A model generated the notes under the pieces. The model was not told where the DNA came from. It ran no database searches and saw only the letters and a list, made by a program, of their open reading frames with translations. Made by a program: the position numbers and the translations under genes. Of a stretch of DNA of 10,295 bases, positions 3-10,152 are shown one piece after another; position 1 is the first letter of the stretch, and the number at the start of each line of letters is the position of its first letter. The DNA is from Clostridiales bacterium (lineage in GTDB: Bacteria; Bacillota; Clostridia; Lachnospirales; Lachnospiraceae). The stretch is taken from positions 1 to 10,295 of the forward strand of contig JAATEU010000347.1 of the NCBI GenBank assembly GCA_015655565.1, in the 5' to 3' direction.

Positions 3-317
3 CTATATCAGTCAAAATGCTATGAAGCTTCTTATACATTAAAAATCACTTCAGTACAAACTTATTTATCTTATATATGTGAAATTATAAAACAACATGA
101 GTTTAGCAGTGCTTCAGATTTTAAAGATATTCTGATTGCGCTTGAAGATATTAAATTCCAATGGAATAAATTTAGTGCAAAATTACTTCGGGATAGCTTT
201 AAAGAAAAAGTGAAAAGAAATGTTGATTTGCTGCAATCAAGTACTTTCATTATGGAACAGCAAAATGAGATATTTAAAAAAATTGTGGAGAAAACATCAG
301 TAGATCGTACTCGGTAA
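3..317 (+). CDS. C-terminal end of an unrecognised protein (5' partial)
   Basis: An open frame runs in from the left edge of the window and ends at TAA 315-317, giving 104 residues with no start inside the window that is obviously preferred. The segment is rich in Lys, Phe, Ile and Glu and looks helical. Near its C-terminus it has a run of alternating charged and hydrophobic residues (around MEQQNEIFKKIVEK) that could form an amphipathic helix. I see no catalytic motif, membrane segment or known domain signature, so I assign no function. Codon use is AT-rich, like the following phosphotransferase gene. The 157-base gap to the next start and the lack of a clear terminator leave open whether the two are co-transcribed. 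Confidence 0.6.
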   Translation, partial: LYQSKCYEASYTLKITSVQTYLSYICEIIKQHEFSSASDFKDILIALEDIKFQWNKFSAKLLRDSFKEKVKRNVDLLQSSTFIMEQQNEIFKKIVEKTSVDRTR

Positions 318-474: not shown

Positions 475-1440
475 ATGAAAAGTTTAACAAAGAATAAACA
501 AAATTCAGATGAAATTATAAAAATGGCTGAAAAAGCATTTGGTAAAAAAAACATTGTAAAGGAATTCACAGAACTCAAAGAGGGATATTTTAATGCGGCT
601 TATTCCCTGCGGTTATATGATGGAAATGAAGTTGTTTTGAAGATTGCTCCGAAAGAAACAGCTAACATTTTGAGCTATGAAAAAAATATTATGCGTGTAG
701 AAGTTGAAGCATTGCAATTGATTAAAACACATACAACTGTTCCGGTTCCAGTTGTATATCTTTATGATGATTCGAAGAAACTATGTGATTCGGAATATTT
801 TTTTATGGAGAAAATGAAAGGTACAAACTATCGGAATCTTATGAATTCACTGAATTCGGAGCAGAAAAAGATGATAGAGACGGAGATTGGTTCTTATAAC
901 TGGGAGATCAACCAAATCAAGGGAAATGCATTTGGTTATTTTATTCAGCCTCAAAAACAGTCCGCTGAGTGGGGAGAAGCGTTTTATATCCTGATTTCGG
1001 ATATTCTAAATGATGGAGCCGCCTTAGATATCGAATTACCTTTTCCTTATGTTGTGATACATGATATTGTTAGGAAATACCTTTTTGCCTGCGATTCTGT
1101 AAAAGAGCCGAAACTTATTCATTGGGATTTATGGCCTGGAAACGTTATAATTAATGAGGGAAAAATTTCGGGGATTATTGATTTGGAAAGGGCTTTATGG
1201 GCAGATCCTCTGATGGAATATTATTTTGGAAACTTATCTGACTCGAAATATTTTTGTATGGGTTACAAAGAAAATTTAATTTGTGATGACGAGGCTAAAA
1301 TAAGAAGAATGCTGTATAATTTGTATCTTTACCTTGTAATGAAAATTGAAAGTAAATATCGGGGCTATAAGGATTTGCAGCAAAGCGAATGGGCGGGAAA
1401 AATGATAGCCGCTGAAATAGAAAATTTAAATAAGATGTAA
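475..1440 (+). CDS. Aminoglycoside/choline-kinase-type phosphotransferase (APH family)
   Basis: Predicted 321-residue cytosolic enzyme of the APH / protein-kinase-like fold, which transfers the ATP gamma-phosphate to a small-molecule hydroxyl. Visible motifs: the ATP-binding lysine in VVLKIAP (K56), a helix-C-like glutamate in RVEVEAL (E76 or E78), the catalytic Brenner-type loop HWDLWPGN (H216, D218, N223; most relatives have HGDxxxxN), and the metal-binding Asp in IIDLERA (D236). The frame is open from 409, but ATG 475 is chosen because GGAGGG (about 460-465) lies 9-10 bases before it, while ATG 409 has no ribosome binding site. Length is normal for the family. Substrate cannot be read from the sequence: aminoglycosides, macrolides, homoserine, choline and sugars are all possible. 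It precedes a butirosin-like amino-acyl cassette, but 576 bases and a separate promoter intervene, so a joint role is only a possibility. Confidence 0.85.
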   Translation: MKSLTKNKQNSDEIIKMAEKAFGKKNIVKEFTELKEGYFNAAYSLRLYDGNEVVLKIAPKETANILSYEKNIMRVEVEALQLIKTHTTVPVPVVYLYDDSKKLCDSEYFFMEKMKGTNYRNLMNSLNSEQKKMIETEIGSYNWEINQIKGNAFGYFIQPQKQSAEWGEAFYILISDILNDGAALDIELPFPYVVIHDIVRKYLFACDSVKEPKLIHWDLWPGNVIINEGKISGIIDLERALWADPLMEYYFGNLSDSKYFCMGYKENLICDDEAKIRRMLYNLYLYLVMKIESKYRGYKDLQQSEWAGKMIAAEIENLNKM

Positions 1441-2016: not shown

Positions 2017-2277
2017 ATGGAAAATCTTAGAGAAATGGTAAGAAGAATTGTTCGTGAGATTATTAGCAGTGAGAGAGATGAGAACAAGGAGGAGATTATT
2101 GAAGATGCTCAGATCTTAAATGAAGCAGGATTAGATTCTCTCAGTTTTGTTAAATTATTAGTAGCATTAGAAGACGAACTGGATATTGAATTTGATTATG
2201 ATTACCTTGTTTTAGACAACTTTAAGACAATTAATAATATTGTGGAATCAATTTCGGATCAAATGGAAAGGAAGTAA
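2017..2277 (+). CDS. Acyl carrier protein (BtrI-like, amino-acyl carrier)
   Basis: An 86-residue carrier protein. The phosphopantetheine site is GLDSLSF with Ser41 as the attachment residue, at the start of helix II. The acidic segment after it (ALEDELDIEFDYDY) is typical of ACP helix II/loop. The frame is also open from ATG 2011, but AAAAGGA at 2002-2008 sits only 2 bases before that codon and 8 bases before ATG 2017, so 2017 is preferred. It is the first gene of a tight operon, with its stop 2 bases before the decarboxylase start. In the butirosin pathway the equivalent BtrI carries glutamate and then 4-aminobutyrate as thioesters. Here that role is inferred from the neighbours, since the protein alone says only carrier protein. 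A phosphopantetheinyl transferase would have to act from elsewhere. No condensation or adenylation gene is nearby, which argues against a fatty-acid or standard NRPS role. Confidence 0.88.
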   Translation: MENLREMVRRIVREIISSERDENKEEIIEDAQILNEAGLDSLSFVKLLVALEDELDIEFDYDYLVLDNFKTINNIVESISDQMERK

Positions 2278-2279
2278 AA

Positions 2280-3467
2280 ATGAATAGTGCTACAATTCAT
2301 CATCTTGTAAATAAGTATAAAACCCCACTGTATATATATAGCCTTGAAACAATAAAAGAAAAGATAAGAGTTTTGAGAGAGACACTTCCAAAACAAGTAG
2401 AGCTTTTTTATTCAGTTAAGGCAAATCCGAATGAAGAATTATTACAGACAATAAACTTATCTGTGGCGGGTATGGAGATCGCTTCCGGCGGGGAGCTTAA
2501 AAAAGTAATTAATGCCGAAGTAAATGCAGACAATGTAATATTTGTAGGTCCAGGTAAAACATATGATGAACTTGAGATGGCTATTAGTAGAAACCTGTAT
2601 TGTATCGTTATTGAGTCTGTACAGGAAGCAAAGATTGTGGATAAAATCGCTTTAAAACATGACAAGATAGTACGTATAGCGATACGGGTTAATCCAATTA
2701 GGGGTAATAAAAGCGCTAGAATAAAGATGAGCGGTGTAGCAAAGCCGTTTGGAATAGATGAAGAAAAGTTATTGCCCGATTTACAAAATATTTTAGAGTT
2801 AACAAATATAGCATTATTAGGAGTTTATACTTATAATGGAACGCAGGCATTGGAAGCTGAGAGTATAAGCAGCAGTATGGAAAATACTTTTTTAATTGCA
2901 AAATCAGTACAGGATTATATAAGAAGACCTATTGAGTTTATTGGATTTGGCGGAGGTTATGGTATTCCATATTTTCAAACAGAGACTAAACTTAATATGG
3001 ATGAATTAAAAGTAAGGTTAAATGAAGTTTTCAGCAAATATGAACATTTATTCAGTAAAACGATACGTTATGTTTCAGAATCCGGGAGATATATTGTAGC
3101 AGAGTGTGGCAGCTATGTTGTAAAAGTACTCTATAAAAAGGAATCACGGGGAACGAATTATGCAATAGTTGATGGAGGCTCTAATTTTTATGCCTCTACT
3201 GCAGGGCTGGGTAAGTTTTTGAGACAGAATTTACCAATATATACACTGAATGAAAATGTTGAATCAGAAAAAGTAACAATTGTAGGTCCACTGTGTACTC
3301 CAACAGATATTCTATCACAGAATATTATATTACCTAAATGTAGTGAAGGAGATATTATTGTTTTTCCTAAATCAGGAGCTTATGGGTTATCTGCAAGTCC
3401 GGTTAATTTTCTTTCACACACAAGGCCATGTGAAGTTTTAACAGATGAAAAGGAACATGTTGTTTAA
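2280..3467 (+). CDS. PLP-dependent decarboxylase, LysA/ODC fold (BtrK-like, ACP-substrate candidate)
   Basis: A 395-residue fold-type III (alanine-racemase-fold) PLP enzyme. The PLP lysine is K47 in FYSVKANP. The phosphate-binding glycine loop is FGGGYG (223-228). ESGR (267-270) matches the EPGR motif. C339 and D343 in GPLCTPTD match the active-site Cys/Asp loop of diaminopimelate and ornithine decarboxylases, and GAYG (366-369) supplies the C-terminal Tyr. The segment corresponding to HxHxGS in LysA reads YTYNGT (183-188), so the histidine that normally stacks on PLP appears to be a tyrosine. AAGGAAG at the end of the ACP gene serves as the ribosome binding site and the start is 2 bases after the ACP stop, indicating translational coupling. 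A plain LysA would act on free meso-diaminopimelate. The ACP and ATP-grasp neighbours instead point to a BtrK-like enzyme that decarboxylates an amino acid held on the carrier protein. The family is certain; the substrate is inferred. Confidence 0.85.
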   Translation: MNSATIHHLVNKYKTPLYIYSLETIKEKIRVLRETLPKQVELFYSVKANPNEELLQTINLSVAGMEIASGGELKKVINAEVNADNVIFVGPGKTYDELEMAISRNLYCIVIESVQEAKIVDKIALKHDKIVRIAIRVNPIRGNKSARIKMSGVAKPFGIDEEKLLPDLQNILELTNIALLGVYTYNGTQALEAESISSSMENTFLIAKSVQDYIRRPIEFIGFGGGYGIPYFQTETKLNMDELKVRLNEVFSKYEHLFSKTIRYVSESGRYIVAECGSYVVKVLYKKESRGTNYAIVDGGSNFYASTAGLGKFLRQNLPIYTLNENVESEKVTIVGPLCTPTDILSQNIILPKCSEGDIIVFPKSGAYGLSASPVNFLSHTRPCEVLTDEKEHVV

Positions 3468-3491
3468 TTCTAGTAATGGGGAAATGATTAT

Positions 3492-4544
3492 ATGGATTTG
3501 TTAGATTTGGATAAATTTGAACCAAAATGTGAAGAAGGTATCACTAAAAAGGTATGGTGGATGAATATTGGTTGTGAAAAGATATGGAATCAAGGTCAAA
3601 CACTATTACCGCATATGACTAATAAATATGAGAAAGAAACAATTGCAGGAACTGAACAATTGTGTTTGTTATTAGCAAAAAAAAAAGATATTGTTATTTT
3701 GCAGCAGCGGCCGGAAGAATTGTTATGTGATCATTTAACAAGCATTGGTTTTACGTTACCTGAAATTATAATACCTAAAGACACTAATCAACTGGACATA
3801 TCGCAAGCAATATTGAATGATGCTTATGTAATGCGGTATTTAAAAGAGGCAGGGAGTAAAAGTTCATTAGGGTTAATGCCATATTGTATTACAAAATATG
3901 AAGAGGATATTGCTGAAGCCGTTAACGGAAAGCTATACGGAACTAATAGTAAAATAATATCTTGGGTAAATAATAAGTGTACAGCACGTCAGATTTCACA
4001 ATTAGCAGGATTAAATATGACTGAAGGTTATATATGTAATAATATTGAAGAAGTATTAACTGCATATAATAAATTGATTAATGGTCAAATAATAAATAAA
4101 CTTGTTATAAAAGAACCTTACGGTGCTTCAGGAAAAGGATTACTTGTTGTTAATAATGAGCGTGAATTTAAGTTTTTTTTGAGAATATTAAAGGGCAAAA
4201 AAATTAATAATTTTGAGTTGATTATAGAAAAATGGTATGACACTATTCTAGACATCAATTACCAGATATTTATAAAAAGTGATGGGACGTCTTACTATAT
4301 AGAACCTAAAAATCAGATTGTTAACAATTCTATCTATGTAGGATGTGATGGATTAGGAAAAAATAATCAATTAACCGGTAAGCAGAGAACATACTTTCAA
4401 ACAGTAGCAGAAACGGTAGCAAATGTACTATATAAACAAGGATACTGGGGTATGGCGAGCATTGATGCAATTATTACAAAAGAGAGAGGAATTATACCCA
4501 TTTTAGAGATTAATGGTAGATTTTCGTTGTCAACATATATTTAA
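3492..4544 (+). CDS. ATP-grasp amino-acid:ACP ligase (BtrJ-like), truncated by an in-frame stop
   Basis: 350 residues before a TAA at 4542-4544. After an N-terminal pre-ATP-grasp-like region (QGQTLLPHMT near residues 34-43) come an ATP-grasp glycine loop (VIKEPYGASGKGL, 205-217), the hinge-like IIEKWYD (244-250), and the metal-binding Asp/Glu/Asn of GMASIDA and ILEINGR (D325, E339, N341, R343). All recognisable catalytic residues therefore lie before the stop. The frame continues open for 87 codons beyond it, so the natural protein was about 438 residues. GGGGA at 3478-3482 gives a good ribosome binding site 9 bases from the start. The gap after the decarboxylase is 24 bases, so it is the third gene of the operon. 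The family joins an amino acid to an acceptor through an acyl phosphate; in butirosin BtrJ the acceptor is the ACP. Whether the truncated form is active is unknown. An authentic nonsense mutation and a sequencing error are both possible. Confidence 0.75.
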   Translation: MDLLDLDKFEPKCEEGITKKVWWMNIGCEKIWNQGQTLLPHMTNKYEKETIAGTEQLCLLLAKKKDIVILQQRPEELLCDHLTSIGFTLPEIIIPKDTNQLDISQAILNDAYVMRYLKEAGSKSSLGLMPYCITKYEEDIAEAVNGKLYGTNSKIISWVNNKCTARQISQLAGLNMTEGYICNNIEEVLTAYNKLINGQIINKLVIKEPYGASGKGLLVVNNEREFKFFLRILKGKKINNFELIIEKWYDTILDINYQIFIKSDGTSYYIEPKNQIVNNSIYVGCDGLGKNNQLTGKQRTYFQTVAETVANVLYKQGYWGMASIDAIITKERGIIPILEINGRFSLSTYI

Positions 4545-4808
4545 TTTATACCCCAAAGATTAGGAATAAAGGCGGAAGTATATTCAAGATATTATAACAT
4601 TAAATCTAATGTTAATATACAAAAAATATTCTTACTATTTCATGATGTATTATATGTTACAGGCAAGGATAAGGGAATTATAATATATTCTTACTCAGAA
4701 GGGATAAATATAAACGGGAGATTATTTACATTAATTATAGGAGATGATATTAATAAAAACAACTTATTGAAAATAATATCAAGTAGATTAAAAGTATTCT
4801 TAGCGTAA
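4545..4808 (+). pseudogene. Severed C-terminal part of the ATP-grasp ligase (same frame, after the stop)
   Basis: Directly after TAA 4542-4544 the same frame stays open for 87 codons to TAA 4806-4808, beginning FIPQRLGIKAEVYS and ending SSRLKVFLA. It has the AT-rich codon use of the preceding gene and reads as ordinary globular protein. It contains no Met codon and has no ribosome binding site, so it cannot plausibly be a gene of its own. RFSLSTYI-stop-FIPQRLG reads as one continuous ATP-grasp C-terminal region with one codon changed to TAA, for example from TCA or TTA. No readthrough context such as a following CTA or CAATTA is seen. Confidence 0.75.
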
Positions 4809-4934: not shown

Positions 4935-6452
4935 CTATTTCTCGTAGGCTCCGCAATCGACGCGGTCTCCCCATATGCGCGCATTGCCATCAAAATCAGT
5001 TTCCCCTGAAGCAGCTGTGAAAGAAGGATCACCAGCCCCTACGGCCGGAGAACTATTCCCAGTGTTCAGATTTCCATTTGCTGCATCAACAAAAAGAGGA
5101 TCTGCAAATATGGAATTTGCATCATTACCGGAACCTGTTTGATATGGTACAAAACCTGTATAGGAAGTTTTTTTCCATGTCCAGGAAGCTTTGCTTGAGC
5201 CTGATGCACAATAATAAAGATTATAATCAATTACATTGCCCGTATTCTGGGTATATTCATTACTAATAAATAAATTTTGTGAATTTGCATATAGGAGGTT
5301 GTTTTTAATGGTATTGTTTCTGGTATCGTACTGCATATAAATTTCTCCGTTGCCATCCTGCAAAGTGTCATTATTGTAAAGTGTATTATTTAAAAACTCG
5401 CAGTTCTCCGTACTTCCTCTTTTTTTATCATATCCGCCAAAGGCAATACCGGCAATATCATTGTTAAAGATCAGGTTATTCCTTACCGTGATATAACTTA
5501 CTGTTTTATTGGCATGCTCACTGGCAATTTCTATACCTAAGTTGCAGTTATAAACCTTGTTTTTCTCTATGACGATATCGGTACTGCCATCACAGTATAT
5601 TCCGTCTGCGCTGCGTTCGCCGTCATATGCAGGGTTTTCTGACGAAACAATATATGCCACCGTATTTCCGTTGCACACCCCGTTACGTGCCTGATCATTG
5701 GCAGACGCAGTACCTTCCCAACCAATGAAATCAATTCCGATGTTATCATTATTATGAACATAGTTGTTGGTTACCTGGAAATTTTCAACATTGCCGTTGA
5801 GAACCATGGATTCACTCCATCCAAGCTTGCATTCCGATATTTCATTCGCATCCAAAATAATATTGTTAATGGATGAAGTTCCATTGGTGCCGTATACCGC
5901 TATGCCATGTGCATTGCCATCGGATGATGCATTGTTTTCTATTGCATGAATCCAATTGTTTCGTATTTCAATATGATTTGAACTGCCTGTCACATAAATC
6001 CCTGCCGGAACGCTGCTGTTTGATTTCACTTTATAGTTTCTGATTTCAAAGCCAACTATTTTTATATAGATTTTATTGTTTACATAAAAAGCCGCCGGTG
6101 TATCTCCGGACAAAGATAATCCTGTTCCGTCCATGACAGCTGTTTCATCCGGATAACTTGATATGGTAATATATCCTGATGATGAGCCTGAAACATTGAT
6201 CTTTACCTGCTCGCTGTAGGTTCCGCCCCGAATATAAACCGTATCGCCGGCCGCAACCGTATTGCACGCTTTTTGGATCGTTTTCCAGGGGCTGCTCAAC
6301 GTTCCCGAATTGCTGTCATTTCCGTCAGCGGCCACATAATATGTATTGGACTGCGCTGTAACAGGCATACAGCTTAATATGACACAAAACACCAGACTGA
6401 ATATAAGAGTAATGGAACCGGATATCATTTTCTTGCTTTTTGCGATTTGCAT
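4935..6452 (-). CDS. Secreted right-handed parallel beta-helix protein (pectate-lyase-like fold)
   Basis: A 505-residue extracellular protein. The N-terminus (MQIAKSKK, then a hydrophobic stretch, then VTA-QS around 31-34) is a signal peptide. Mature residues 38-80 hold the entry module YYVAADGNDSNSG...PWKTIQKA...GDTVYIRGGTY, the DUF1565/PL9-type start of secreted beta-helix proteins. Many Asn-rich coils follow (for example IEIRNNWIH, FQVTNNYVH, IVIEKNKVY, ITVRNNLIF, CEFLNNTLY, TIKNNLLYA). The end has the common cap DFDGNAR...VDCGAYEK. SADGIYCDG (281-289) and HGIAVYG (182-188) are candidate ligand-facing turns. AAGGAGG at 6461-6467 is 8 bases from the start. No CBM, dockerin or cell-wall anchor is seen. 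Beta-helix relatives include polysaccharide lyases and glycosidases acting on pectin, alginate or xylan. The catalytic residues cannot be fixed from sequence alone, so the substrate is left open; pectin is a guess from context. Confidence 0.8.
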   Translation of the reverse strand: MQIAKSKKMISGSITLIFSLVFCVILSCMPVTAQSNTYYVAADGNDSNSGTLSSPWKTIQKACNTVAAGDTVYIRGGTYSEQVKINVSGSSSGYITISSYPDETAVMDGTGLSLSGDTPAAFYVNNKIYIKIVGFEIRNYKVKSNSSVPAGIYVTGSSNHIEIRNNWIHAIENNASSDGNAHGIAVYGTNGTSSINNIILDANEISECKLGWSESMVLNGNVENFQVTNNYVHNNDNIGIDFIGWEGTASANDQARNGVCNGNTVAYIVSSENPAYDGERSADGIYCDGSTDIVIEKNKVYNCNLGIEIASEHANKTVSYITVRNNLIFNNDIAGIAFGGYDKKRGSTENCEFLNNTLYNNDTLQDGNGEIYMQYDTRNNTIKNNLLYANSQNLFISNEYTQNTGNVIDYNLYYCASGSSKASWTWKKTSYTGFVPYQTGSGNDANSIFADPLFVDAANGNLNTGNSSPAVGAGDPSFTAASGETDFDGNARIWGDRVDCGAYEK

Positions 6453-6577
6453 AAAGACTACCTCCTTAATAATTGTTAATAAATTTCCTGTTTATTTCTC
6501 CCGCAATTGCGTTGCTTTTTTTTGCTTCTATAAGCTTGCAATCTTTTAAAATAATTTTTTGAAATGATAAGTGTGGA

Positions 6578-6593
6578 GGCCGTCATGACAGCC
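6578..6593. promoter_or_regulatory. Imperfect dyad, operator candidate
   Basis: GGCCGTCATGACAGCC is a 16-bp inverted repeat around the perfect core GTCATGAC, with one mismatched pair. It is GC-rich in an AT-rich intergenic region and lies about 125 bases upstream of the beta-helix start, where a regulator of the divergent genes could bind. No regulator gene is in the window. Confidence 0.3.
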
Positions 6594-6732
6594 CCTAAAT
6601 TGGCACCGTACTAATTAGACAAAAAGCCGGCCGAACCTGTTACGATAGGAATATTCTAACATAATAAAAGGAATAAGTCGAGCTTTCCATTTTGGATAAT
6701 AATGCTAAAAATATCCTTTTTCTGCAATTTTG

Positions 6733-6760
6733 TTGACATGAATTATCAAATTGTTATAAT
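6733..6760 (+). promoter_or_regulatory. Consensus sigma-A promoter with extended -10
   Basis: TTGACA (6733-6738), a 16-base spacer, then TATAAT (6755-6760) preceded by TG-T (6752-6754), an extended -10. Both hexamers are perfect. Transcription would start near 6767 on the plus strand, towards the GH5 gene about 475 bases downstream. No better promoter was found nearer to GH5. Confidence 0.8.
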
Positions 6761-6811
6761 AAATTAAAATAACCCTATTTTTTTTAAGATTCAGAAAGGA
6801 GGGGTCAATAA

Positions 6812-6958
6812 ATAGTATCTGTTAAGAGGCTTTTTATTATAGTATGCTTTCTTTGTTTTAAATGTTGATTTATACTGACAACGGTACTGCCGCTCAAAAA
6901 TGAAAGATTATTCAAGCAGATGATACTAATGCTGAACAATTATACGGTGAGTAAATAA
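6812..6958 (+). pseudogene. Possible decayed small secreted-protein gene in the GH5 leader
   Basis: A strong ribosome binding site (AAAGGAGGGG, 6795-6804) follows the consensus promoter. Seven bases after it the codon is ATA (6812-6814), not ATG. The frame from there reads VSVKRLFIIVCFLCFKC, a basic start followed by a hydrophobic stretch like a signal peptide. It is interrupted by TGA at 6866-6868 and then runs open to TAA 6956-6958. Another frame of the same stretch gives QADDTNAEQLYGE (about 6917-6955), which looks more like a mature protein segment and would imply a frameshift. The reading as a broken gene is inference: the promoter, the spacing of the ribosome binding site and the hydrophobic segment support it; the missing start and the stop speak for decay or chance. 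Confidence 0.3.
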
Positions 6959-6986
6959 GTCAACATCTTGAATCAGTGAATTCCTG

Positions 6987-7076
6987 ATGGCGGCGGTGAA
7001 AAAGAATGAAATTCCCATTTTGCCAAATGATACGAAGGAGGTGAAATATTTATTTAAAAAGCAGATGAAATATTAA
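6987..7076 (+). pseudogene. Short open frame of 29 codons in the GH5 leader, possible relic
   Basis: ATG 6987 opens 29 codons ending at TAA 7074-7076, beginning MAAVKKNEIPILPND and ending LFKKQMKY. It has no ribosome binding site of its own; the AAGGAGGTG at 7035-7043 lies inside it. It may be a frameshifted continuation of the relic at 6812-6958, or mean nothing. Confidence 0.2.
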
Positions 7077-7139
7077 ATAATTACAGCTTAAAATTGATAT
7101 ATAACTGAAAAAAGGGCGCTGAATACGGAGGGTTACAGG

Positions 7140-7205
7140 TTGGCGAATGGTATTTTAATAGATAATGGGAAGGGAGGTGTTCCTTGTTATAAATCTTTAA
7201 CATAG
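7140..7205 (+). CDS. Possible 21-residue leader peptide before the GH5 gene
   Basis: TTG 7140 follows GGAGGG (7127-7132) by 7 bases and opens 21 codons (LANGILIDNGKGGVPCYKSLT) to TAG 7203-7205, 38 bases before the GH5 start. The ribosome binding site is well placed but the start codon is TTG and the frame is short. It does not match a known attenuator peptide. It may be a real small peptide, or part of decayed coding, since the frame is open upstream to about 7098. Confidence 0.22.
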   Translation: MANGILIDNGKGGVPCYKSLT

Positions 7206-7243
7206 GGAGCTATATTAAATAATTGATAAAGGAGAAAATTAGG

Positions 7244-8653
7244 ATGAAAAAAACAAAAAAGATTATTTCATTGCTTATTATTTTAACGACTGTTGTTACA
7301 ACTGGTTACTTTAATAACAACCAAATAGTAACTGCTTCTGATACAAATAATGATGACTGGCTGCATTGCGTCGGTAACAGGATTTATGACATGAATGATA
7401 ATGAGGTTTGGCTGACCGGTGCGAATTGGTTTGGTTTTAACTGCAGTGAAAATGTATTTCATGGTGCATGGTATGATGTTAAGGATATTTTAATAAGTGT
7501 TGCAGATAGAGGAATAGGATTTTTAAGAGTCCCAATTTCTACTGAGCTTTTGTATAGTTGGATGGTTGGAAATCCAAATAAAGTTTCAAGTGTAACTGCG
7601 GCCAATAATCCGCCATATTATGTTTGCAACCCTGATTTTTATGATACGGCAACAAATAGTACGAAAAACAGCATGGAAATATTTGATATTATAATGGGAT
7701 ACTGCAAACAGCTGGGTATCAAGGTAATGATTGATGTACATAGCCCGGACGCCAATAATTCAGGGCATAACTATCCGTTATGGTATGGACTGACCACAGC
7801 TACGGCAGGTGAAATAACGACAGATAAGTGGATCAATACTTTGGCATGGCTGGCTGATAAATATAAAAATGACGATACTATCCTGGCATTCGATTTAAAA
7901 AATGAGCCCCATGGAAAAAGGGGATATACGGATGCTGCACCTGCGGATATGGCAAAATGGGATAATTCCGAAGATGAAAATAACTGGAAATATGCAGCTG
8001 AAAGCTGTGCTAATGCAATACTTGCAGTAAACCCGAAGTTATTAATAATGATTGAAGGTGTTGAACAATACCCTAGAACTGAAATGGGCTATACCTATGA
8101 TACACCGGATGTTTGGGGGGCTGCCGGTGCTCAGGCTCTATGGTATGGTGCCTGGTGGGGTGGAAATTTAAGAGGAGTGAAGGATTATCCCATTGATTTA
8201 GGTTCCCTGAACAGCCAGATTGTATATTCACCTCATGACTACGGGCCTTCCGTTTACAATCAAACATGGTTTGATAAGGATTTTACAACCCAGACCCTTC
8301 TGGATGATTATTGGTATGATACTTGGGCATATATTAATGATCAGGGTATTGCACCGCTTTTAATCGGTGAGTGGGGAGGATATATGGATGGAGGAAAGAA
8401 CCAGGAATGGATGACACTATTAAGGGATTATATGATTAGTAACCATATCAATCATACATTTTGGTGTATTAATCCAAATTCAGGTGATACCGGAGGCTTA
8501 CTGGGAAATGACTGGGAAACCTGGGATGAAGAAAAATATGCATTGTTGAAACCTGCATTATGGCAGTCAGGCGGAAAATTTATCGGGCTTGACCACCAGA
8601 TACCTCTTGGTTCAAACGGAATATCCTTAGGACAGTATTATGGGAGTAAGTAA
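7244..8653 (+). CDS. Secreted GH5 endoglucanase-type glycoside hydrolase
   Basis: A 469-residue extracellular enzyme, hydrolysing beta-1,4-glucan (cellulose/beta-glucan) by the retaining mechanism if it follows its family. The signal peptide is MKKTKKIISLLIILTT... ending near VTA-SD (31-32). The rest is a single GH5 (beta/alpha)8 barrel: R95 in LRVP, H166 in DVHSPD, the acid/base pair N220-E221 in LKNEPHG, H331 and Y333 in SPHDYGP, the nucleophile E376 in IGEWGG, and the aromatic W407 in FWCINP. IGEWGGYMDGG and NPNSGDTGGLLG are typical of the GH5 group of clostridial and Bacillus-type endoglucanases close to subfamily 1; that subfamily is from memory, not computed. A TTG at 7223 is in frame, but ATG 7244 is chosen because AAAGGAG (7228-7234) is 9 bases from it and the basic N-terminus then suits a signal peptide. 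The protein stops right after the catalytic domain, without the CBM or dockerin many relatives carry. Confidence 0.92.
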   Translation: MKKTKKIISLLIILTTVVTTGYFNNNQIVTASDTNNDDWLHCVGNRIYDMNDNEVWLTGANWFGFNCSENVFHGAWYDVKDILISVADRGIGFLRVPISTELLYSWMVGNPNKVSSVTAANNPPYYVCNPDFYDTATNSTKNSMEIFDIIMGYCKQLGIKVMIDVHSPDANNSGHNYPLWYGLTTATAGEITTDKWINTLAWLADKYKNDDTILAFDLKNEPHGKRGYTDAAPADMAKWDNSEDENNWKYAAESCANAILAVNPKLLIMIEGVEQYPRTEMGYTYDTPDVWGAAGAQALWYGAWWGGNLRGVKDYPIDLGSLNSQIVYSPHDYGPSVYNQTWFDKDFTTQTLLDDYWYDTWAYINDQGIAPLLIGEWGGYMDGGKNQEWMTLLRDYMISNHINHTFWCINPNSGDTGGLLGNDWETWDEEKYALLKPALWQSGGKFIGLDHQIPLGSNGISLGQYYGSK

Positions 8654-8701
8654 TCCACATTTATTTAAAACCACACTCTGTTAGGTGAACAGATAAAAGA
8701 T

Positions 8702-8746
8702 AAAAATTGAGAATGGGTTTCTAAATAAGCCCATTCTCAATTTTTT
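8702..8746. terminator. Strong bidirectional intrinsic terminator between convergent GH5 and GH43 genes
   Basis: AAAATTGAGAATGGG (8703-8717 region) pairs perfectly with CCCATTCTCAATTTT (8730-8744 region) around a loop of about 12 bases, parts of which can pair further. The plus strand ends in TTTTTT (8741-8746). The A-run at the left becomes the T-run on the minus strand, so it can also stop the GH43 transcript that ends at 8806. It is the clearest terminator in the window. Confidence 0.9.
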
Positions 8747-8805
8747 GTGAGTGCAGCAAGTCGAAATTGCCAAATTGAGCAGATGTTAAATTTTAAGCCT
8801 GTTTT

Positions 8806-10152
8806 TTAATTTGTAATTTTGAAGGTTGCGTCCTGCTTTTCACTATCGGAACTTATGGGATCCAATTTCAAAAGATAATTACTGTGCCTTATATACCTTG
8901 ACGGGAAGTTATAAGACTGGAAGGACGTCCATGCAGAATCCTTAAGTCCGGCTACTTTTTTAAAAGTTGCATCTTCCGCAAAGTTACTGGTTCCGTCGTA
9001 CTTCTCCAGAGCAAAGTCATAATTGTAATGCCTCAAATAGTAACCGGGGTAATTAACAGACTGGAAGGAAATATAATCTGCGGCGGAGTTGGCCAGACCC
9101 GGCACAAGCTGCCATTGTGAGTCCATAAATGGATCCACGTCAGCGTCAATTCTGGCATCATAATTTGAATGCCTTACAAACATAGTCGGAAAGTTATAAG
9201 ACTGGAGCCTGTTCTTAACTCCGTCTACTCCTGTTGAAGTCTGTGCAATTGCTGGAAGGGTACCGTCGGCGTTATAATTAAACTTTTCAATGCAGACCGA
9301 ACGCTTATAATCTCCGCCCGCCGGCAGGGAGCCATTATGATATATAAAGTATGGCTGACCATTAAATTCTATAATTGCCTGGTGGTTAGTACTGCAGGTT
9401 CCCGTAGCCGGCATGATGATCCCTCTGTAGGTCCAGGGTCCTGTGGGGCTGCTGCTTGTAGCGTATGCTATCTGCTCAGGCCAACCATATGCATAAGAAA
9501 GATAATATGTGGAACCGTACTTGTGAAGCCAGGGAGCTTCCGTAAAGCTTGGAAGAGTTACGGTATTGATGGAGCCGCTATAGGAAATCATATCACTGTT
9601 AAGCTTTACATACTTACAAACAGTATTTCCCCAATACATATATGTCTGTCCGTCACTGTCTACAAAAACGGTAGGATCAATATCGTCCCAGGATATATCA
9701 GTCTGTGTTGTCATATCGTTAGTTATAAGCGCATAGCCGAGTGCATCGGTAAATGGGCCTGTTGGACTGGCTGATACCGCAACACCGATGGCTTTGCCTG
9801 AAATACTCTTATGCTCCGCACAGATATACCAGTAGAACTTTCCGTCTTTATACACAACCTGACTTGCCCATGCATCACCTTTCGCCCAACTGAATGCACT
9901 CACTGCAAGCGGTGTCCCCCGGTCGGTCCAATTGACCATATCTGTTGAGGAATAGCATTTCCAATTATTCATGACATAGCCGGTGGAACCTTCGTCATGC
10001 CCGGTATACAGGTAGCATGTGCCGTTGTATACCATAGCTGCGGGGTCTGCGGTATAGATATTTTCAACGATCGGATTATCTGCATAGCACACAAATGTGA
10101 ACAATAGCGTAATAATAAGAGTTGTTGCCAGTACCTTTAAAACTAATCTCAT
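8806..10152 (-). CDS. Secreted GH43 arabinofuranosidase/xylosidase-type enzyme with C-terminal AbfB (CBM42) domain
   Basis: A 448-residue extracellular enzyme. Signal peptide MRLVLKVLATTLIITLLFTF ends near CYA-D (24/25). Residues about 25-305 form a GH43 five-bladed propeller: base D36 in TADPAAM, pKa-tuning D159 in DIDPTVF, acid E205 in FTEAPWLH, and H272 region YHNG. Residues about 312-448 form an AbfB beta-trefoil with three repeats, LQSYNFP...RHSNYDARID (316-336), FQSVNYPG...RHYNYDF (363-380) and FQSYNFPS...RHSNYLLKLD (411-431), which bind arabinofuranosyl side chains. The combination points to release of arabinose from arabinoxylan or arabinan; the exact linkage and GH43 subfamily are not determined. 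AAGG at 10162-10165 is 9 bases before the start. A second AbfB gene ends only 53 bases upstream, so this is probably the second gene of a minus-strand operon. Confidence 0.9.
   Translation of the reverse strand: MRLVLKVLATTLIITLLFTFVCYADNPIVENIYTADPAAMVYNGTCYLYTGHDEGSTGYVMNNWKCYSSTDMVNWTDRGTPLAVSAFSWAKGDAWASQVVYKDGKFYWYICAEHKSISGKAIGVAVSASPTGPFTDALGYALITNDMTTQTDISWDDIDPTVFVDSDGQTYMYWGNTVCKYVKLNSDMISYSGSINTVTLPSFTEAPWLHKYGSTYYLSYAYGWPEQIAYATSSSPTGPWTYRGIIMPATGTCSTNHQAIIEFNGQPYFIYHNGSLPAGGDYKRSVCIEKFNYNADGTLPAIAQTSTGVDGVKNRLQSYNFPTMFVRHSNYDARIDADVDPFMDSQWQLVPGLANSAADYISFQSVNYPGYYLRHYNYDFALEKYDGTSNFAEDATFKKVAGLKDSAWTSFQSYNFPSRYIRHSNYLLKLDPISSDSEKQDATFKITN

Follow-up and report, generated by a model that had tools for sequence, protein, structure and literature searches.

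With an acyl carrier protein (ACP), a pyridoxal 5'-phosphate (PLP)-dependent decarboxylase and an ATP-grasp ligase encoded one behind the other, the DNA stretch analysed here is likely to carry an aminoacyl donor module of the butirosin/closthioamide type, in which an amino acid would be decarboxylated on its carrier and then transferred by a BtrH-like enzyme. This stretch, hereafter designated as the window, is the entire contig C400 (10,295 bases) of the source genome G000, a fragmentary metagenome-assembled genome (MAG; 632 contigs, 3.18 Mb, 63% complete). Judging from its gene content, the cassette represents a further member of this kind of pathway, probably with its own acyltransferase, whose gene appears to be split between the start of the window and the end of a second contig of the same genome, C290 (5,976 bases). 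Directly observed are the genes themselves, the families to which they belong, the way they are linked elsewhere, and the similarity of both acyltransferase pieces to one protein.

In the pathway proposed, the ligase would couple glutamate or aspartate, as the acidic amino acid, at the side-chain carboxylate to the phosphopantetheine thiol of the ACP, at the expense of ATP. The alpha-carboxylate of the bound amino acid would be removed by the decarboxylase to give 4-aminobutyryl- or beta-alanyl-ACP, and the BtrH-like papain-fold enzyme would pass the acyl group to the amine of an acceptor. From sequence we infer this chemistry, together with its on-carrier order, the amino acid and the acceptor. 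In the butirosin system, glutamate is loaded by BtrJ through its side chain. BtrK decarboxylates BtrI-bound glutamate (BtrI-S-glutamate; PMC7857480) and BtrH is an ACP:aminoglycoside acyltransferase (PMC10318531).

The original prediction, made from the window alone, described three tightly spaced genes, and this description was confirmed, all three lying on the plus strand with intergenic gaps of 2 and 24 bases. The first (2011-2277, with a start at 2011 or 2017) encodes a stand-alone ACP of the BtrI/CtaE type (PF00550, PP-binding, 35.4 bits); the second (2280-3467) encodes an alanine-racemase-fold PLP decarboxylase of the BtrK type (Orn_Arg_deC_N, 129.3 bits); and the third (3492-4544), which ends at an in-frame TAA (4542-4544), encodes an ATP-grasp carboxylate ligase of the BtrJ/CtaD family (ATP-grasp_3, 28.7 bits). 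Each Pfam score exceeds its cut-off. The two catalytic residues had been placed correctly, the ACP serine of the DSL motif at position 41 when numbered from the start at 2017, and the PLP lysine at position 47 in VKAN.

The predicted resemblance to BtrI-BtrK-BtrJ was borne out for all three proteins. The ACP is 55% identical over 42 residues to that of the butirosin-type cluster L141 and 31% identical over 77 residues to the CtaE-type ACP of the closthioamide-type locus L096 (both loci are described below). Among solved structures, BtrK (2j66) was the best match to the decarboxylase (E 7.3e-82, 37% identity), followed by 6knh (E 1.7e-49), which we take to be SbnH, and then by diaminopimelate decarboxylases. 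In a FastTree phylogeny of 98 sequences (local supports), the window enzyme and BtrK fell into a group of 82 (support 0.85), and a group of 83 included 6knh (support 0.95). Neither group contained any of the 14 LysA-type enzymes, defined as lysA-model matches from related genomes, of which three exceed the model's own cut-off. Clustering with true LysA, which had been raised as a possible objection, was thus not observed.

For the ligase, the BtrJ-type enzyme of L141, reached through BtrK searches of 75 and 394 genomes, served as a stand-in for BtrJ. Identity between the two is 24%, with E-values of 2e-39 in the pairwise comparison and 2e-73 with the A1 profile. When 93 ligases were placed in a midpoint-rooted tree, the clade of the window enzyme (25 sequences) came out as sister to a group of three (support 0.72) to which the enzymes of L141 (BtrJ-type) and L096 (CtaD-type) belong, and the ligase accordingly groups with these enzymes and not with an unrelated family. 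A PDB search using a 32-sequence ligase profile returned the ATP-grasp peptide ligase 8ynd first (5e-14), and then carboxylases (from 2e-10), BesA (2e-8) and PGM1 (6e-8). When about 5.8 billion proteins were searched with a word limit, 69 ligase matches were obtained, the window's own included. The nearest other match, P0003 (51% identity), and the nearest other decarboxylase, P0072 (57%), are each encoded on a 15,003-base contig. Plasmid records contained three relatives, all from Streptomyces (20-28% identity), and no relative was found in 53 pattern stretches of viral contigs.

The prediction had considered the cassette to be without an acyltransferase, a view that has to be revised. At the start of the window, an open reading frame (ORF; 3-317, plus strand) cut by the contig start aligns with positions 248-342 of BtrH10 (38 bits), a profile that we built from the BtrH-like proteins of other loci, and has no Pfam match; it is predicted to encode the C-terminal part of a BtrH-like acyltransferase of papain-like fold. 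Its N-terminal counterpart of 213 residues lies at the end of C290 (L105:5338-5976), where this last ORF is cut by the contig end, and aligns with BtrH10 positions 27-216 (95 bits). It is the sole BtrH_N match in this 63% complete genome at E 0.001. Against PF14399 (cut-off 29.7), the C290 stretch scored 30.4 bits in one scan and 29.4 bits in another. When the C290 piece was searched against proteins, one of 57 candidates matched, P0191 (334 residues), which itself scores 38 bits against PF14399 and also matches Peptidase_C39_2. Residues 1-210 of P0191 are covered by the C290 piece (51% identity) and residues 228-325 by the window piece (42%, E 3e-28), leaving 17 residues between them. The G+C contents of the two pieces are 32.2% and 28.1%. 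The simplest reading of these alignments is that both pieces come from a single gene, about 17 codons of which fall into an assembly gap. The adjacency of the two contigs is inferred.

Linkage of the three genes was surveyed with the ligase profile in one genome per species (84,980 species), where 79 pattern matches were reduced to 46 loci; gene counts rely on our own ORF caller and on profiles built from these 46 loci. A decarboxylase was present in 37 of the 46 loci, in 24 of them within 150 bases of the ligase, so that the trio is not a chance association. An ACP was detected in 32 loci, a count lowered by the undercalling of short genes, and a BtrH-like gene also in 32. As for the conserved fourth gene that such a survey had been suggested to look for, a BtrH-like gene accompanies 28 of the 37 loci having both ligase and decarboxylase; four more have an AAC(3)-like gene, and five (L017, L023, L037, L052 and L056) have neither. 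Among those five, a Pfam BtrH_N match falls by its coordinates inside L023, if C13 is the contig of L023, and such matches occur about 0.5-0.6 kb past the ends of L017 and L056; contig ends cut L037 and L052 at or near the decarboxylase. At the genome level, 36 of the 45 genomes holding these loci have a BtrH_N match, which exceeds the cut-off in 29 and does not always lie close to the ligase. Other frequent neighbours, as detected with our own profiles in the 46 loci, were ABC exporters (27), AMP ligases (18), radical SAM enzymes (18) and NTP_transf_5 proteins (16). No survey of the ATP-grasp/ACP/decarboxylase trio in Clostridia was found among the literature matches listed, in a search that left most subscription papers outside its reach.

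Several points weigh against the donor-module reading. In this assembly, the ligase frame (3492-4808) is interrupted by the TAA at 4542-4544. The facing ends of C290 and the window contig share no sequence, and in the four relatives having metA (carried by C290) and GH5 (carried by the window) on one contig (G008, G010, G012 and G014), the two genes are more than 1 Mb apart with differing neighbours; synteny therefore gives no support for joining C290 to C400. Among the ORFs of the window and C290, genes for a scaffold, an oxygenase, an exporter or a cyclotransferase were not seen, in agreement with the original prediction as far as a flavin oxygenase and a gamma-glutamyl cyclotransferase are concerned. 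The choice between glutamate and aspartate is not readable from the sequence. Finally, PMC6772006 leaves the source of beta-alanine in closthioamide open, since it may be produced from aspartate by CtaF or taken from primary metabolism before being loaded by CtaD.

The first of these points raises the possibility that the locus is a decaying remnant whose ligase is a pseudogene and which makes nothing, a scenario that we consider rather unlikely, yet ahead of the other alternatives, and that is compatible with the donor-module reading, which concerns what the module is built for. The prediction of an ATP-grasp gene held for the family, but 3492-4808 is not a single open frame: after the TAA, the same frame stays open from 4545 to 4808 (plus strand), and this segment aligns with the family as the C-terminal remainder of the ligase. 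The AT-rich stretch of 570 bases preceding the ACP (1441-2010) also fits with decay, no gene being detected there by tblastn with 851 ORFs from the window and the 46 loci (best match, E 0.006 over 34 residues). The same holds for the sporadic distribution of the ligase, since with G000 counted in, the profile matched only 12 of 391 genomes at class level, seven of which belong to one genus, 5 of 392 at order level and 4 of 397 at family level. Within the genus of G000, G008 carries a distant ligase with an ACP and a BtrH-like gene, and no decarboxylase in the 20 kb read. Yet the ACP and the decarboxylase are intact, and all nine columns downstream of the TAA that are conserved in at least 80% of 31 ligase homologues are retained in the window, which argues for a recent break or an assembly error. 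Single-base errors are plausible in so fragmentary a MAG, and ligase homologues with an intact frame exist. Thus, the ligase copy of this assembly may be inactive, or the assembly may be wrong.

A further alternative concerns the order of the reactions: the decarboxylase could yield a free omega-amino acid, such as beta-alanine from aspartate, and the ligase could load this finished product onto the ACP. The closthioamide authors depict CtaF and CtaD as acting in this order (PMC6772006), both being homologues of the window enzymes. However, the butirosin precedent (PMC7857480) places decarboxylation on BtrI, and ACP-decarboxylase fusions, which occur in two listed homologues out of 120 (P0077 and P0082), support a decarboxylation on the carrier. 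In P0077 and P0082, as well as in L091:10627 (a decarboxylase of 508 residues), the carrier domain is joined to the C-terminus of the decarboxylase. Taken together, decarboxylation of the free amino acid seems improbable, and the ACP-bound omega-amino acid put forward in the original prediction gains support as the probable outcome.

Between the BtrH-like gene and the ACP lies an APH/fructosamine-kinase-like phosphotransferase gene (475-1440, plus strand; PF01636, 66.8 bits, above the cut-off), whose membership in the cassette is uncertain. Its position suggests another scenario, in which an APH-like kinase, a BtrH-like acyltransferase and the donor module would modify an antibiotic coming from outside and make no product of their own; the lack of scaffold genes among the ORFs of the window and C290 would fit with it. 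Yet the kinase scored at most 26.6 bits against aminoglycoside kinase models with cut-offs ranging from 205 to 725, none of the 1120 ORFs in the surveyed loci is related to it, and it lies 570 bases away from the ACP, making this scenario very unlikely. A PDB search returned no relative of the kinase at E 0.001. With no counterpart in the surveyed loci, its status as a conserved member of the cassette was likewise not supported.

There is next to no chance that the decarboxylase is simply the LysA of this organism in a fortuitous neighbourhood, as its match to TIGR01048 (lysA; 251.6 bits, cut-off 297.9) might suggest, given its position outside the LysA-type group, its lack of the C-E motif, the conservation of the trio in other genomes and a separate LysA-type gene in G000. 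That score alone is not decisive, because LysA-type enzymes of the genus also fall below the cut-off (270-281 bits), which is exceeded in only 3 of 15 genomes. Behind the catalytic cysteine, the window enzyme reads T-P-T-D (CTPTD with the cysteine), BtrK T-P-E-D and 6knh T-P-K-D, whereas all 14 LysA-type enzymes have a glutamate; T-P-I-D occurs in a fifteenth lysA-model match, L109, whose branch lies immediately outside the group of 83. The separate LysA-type gene is a fragment on C246 that carries the C-E motif, and the eight tree sequences that match it best (82-87% identity) are all LysA-type enzymes of the genus. On these grounds, LysA was rejected as the identity of the window decarboxylase.

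Downstream of the trio, the next gene (4935-6452) is convergent and GH5 lies beyond it, so that no link of the trio to plant cell wall degradation was seen. The region 4935-10152 encodes a right-handed beta-helix (pectate-lyase-like) protein on the minus strand, the GH5 protein on the plus strand and a GH43 protein with AbfB on the minus strand. Of 14 other genomes of the genus, five have a counterpart of this GH5 (77-82% identity), and its neighbours vary among the three that were read.

Other surveyed loci fall into recurrent types. Six of them (L022, L025 and L034 from Ruminiclostridium, L094, L095 and L100) share a cluster comprising a ligase, a decarboxylase, a BtrH-like gene and NTP_transf_5, thymidylate-kinase-like and AMP-ligase genes in each case, and a 5'-nucleotidase in four of the six; a nucleotidyl masking of the product that is later removed outside the cell is a possible interpretation. 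Eleven Paenibacillus clusters (L030, L032, L033, L039-L042, L045, L047, L050 and L051) all combine radical SAM and BtrH-like genes, with two ligases in 10, a GFO/IDH dehydrogenase in nine and a decarboxylase 44-48% identical to BtrK in 10. Their products are possibly aminocyclitols.

In loci from Lachnospiraceae and a single Clostridiales MAG, an AAC(3)-like acyltransferase gene immediately precedes the decarboxylase (L029, L031, L035 and L046), and six loci have a DUF4910 gene nearby (L029, L031, L035, L037, L038 and L052). In L031 (Lachnospiraceae), the trio lies among genes for a DegT aminotransferase, NeuB, a CTP_transf_3 cytidylyltransferase and a polysialyltransferase-like protein, and the related L029 has DegT together with a Polysacc_synt_2 (nucleotide-sugar) dehydratase; the NeuB scan did not extend to the remaining AAC(3)/DUF4910 loci. 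The gene content of L031 and L029 suggests the omega-aminoacylation of a nonulosonic acid. Among the literature matches listed, most subscription papers being outside the search, none describes the trio within nonulosonic-acid clusters. As a tentative proposal, somewhat less probable than not, the trio might be a portable omega-amino acyl donor used beyond antibiotics: BtrH-like partners would decorate small molecules, while in some Lachnospiraceae an AAC(3)-like partner would attach 4-aminobutyryl or beta-alanyl groups to a surface sugar, adding positive charge, and the window copy would be a compact, scaffold-free version. If the glycan context is true, antibiotic-type chemistry would also tailor bacterial surface sugars. 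More broadly, the survey shows carrier chemistry of the butirosin type to extend across Clostridia and Paenibacillaceae alongside BtrH-like transferases, exporters and modifying enzymes. The window trio is no orphan, and the surveyed loci provide a set of testable cryptic clusters.

Another known system used for comparison is the exosortase A system. Its decarboxylase model TIGR03099 is the top NCBIfam match of the window decarboxylase, yet the score (372.1 bits) is under the cut-off (478.45); the partners here are an ATP-grasp ligase and a BtrH-like protein, and the scanned genes of the window are of other kinds, no search for exosortase having been made.

The butirosin module of Bacillus circulans was compared through BtrK (2j66) and L141. 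This locus comprises genes for GGACT, BtrH_N, ACP, ATP-grasp, a decarboxylase (61% identity to BtrK) and a luciferase-like enzyme; close by are an aminotransferase gene and one resembling dehydroquinate synthase, and by this content it is a butirosin-type cluster. The window and C290, if adjacent, share with it the ACP, the BtrK-type decarboxylase, the BtrJ-type ligase and the BtrH_N acyltransferase. In contrast, a scan confined to the genes of the window and C290 revealed no BtrO- or BtrG-like gene and no aminocyclitol (2-deoxystreptamine) genes. The gene order also differs (H-kinase-I-K-J here, G-H-I-J-K-O in L141), the ligase is interrupted, and similarity is limited to 37% with BtrK and 24% with the BtrJ-type ligase.

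The closthioamide system of the cellulolytic clostridium Ruminiclostridium cellulolyticum (CtaD/CtaE/CtaF and CtaG) was represented by L096, identified by its gene content as the closthioamide locus. L096 encodes, in order, chorismate lyase, a class III aminotransferase, an AANH-like protein, ATP-grasp, a carrier protein, a decarboxylase, a C39-like protein, a second carrier protein (detected with our own profile only), an AMP ligase, a transglutaminase-like protein and an aldo/keto reductase, and these roles are those given for CtaA to CtaK in PMC6772006. Three of these matches, to AANH, C39 and transglutaminase, miss their Pfam cut-offs by 1 to 2 bits (20.7 versus 22 for the CtaG-type Peptidase_C39). 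Scanning the genes of the window and C290 turned up no AANH thioamide synthetase, transglutaminase or chorismate lyase (p-hydroxybenzoate supply), and neither the second carrier protein nor the AMP ligase was seen there. Common to both systems are the ATP-grasp ligase (32% identity), the carrier protein (31%), the BtrK-type decarboxylase (35%) and a C39/papain-like transferase, whose likeness lies in a common papain-like superfamily (Peptidase_C39_2 in P0191, Peptidase_C39 just under its cut-off in the CtaG-type protein). The suggestion that such a cassette had not been described in a clostridium thus does not stand: CtaD, CtaE and CtaF are homologues of the three window proteins, and the pairing of ligase and decarboxylase recurs in most of the surveyed loci.

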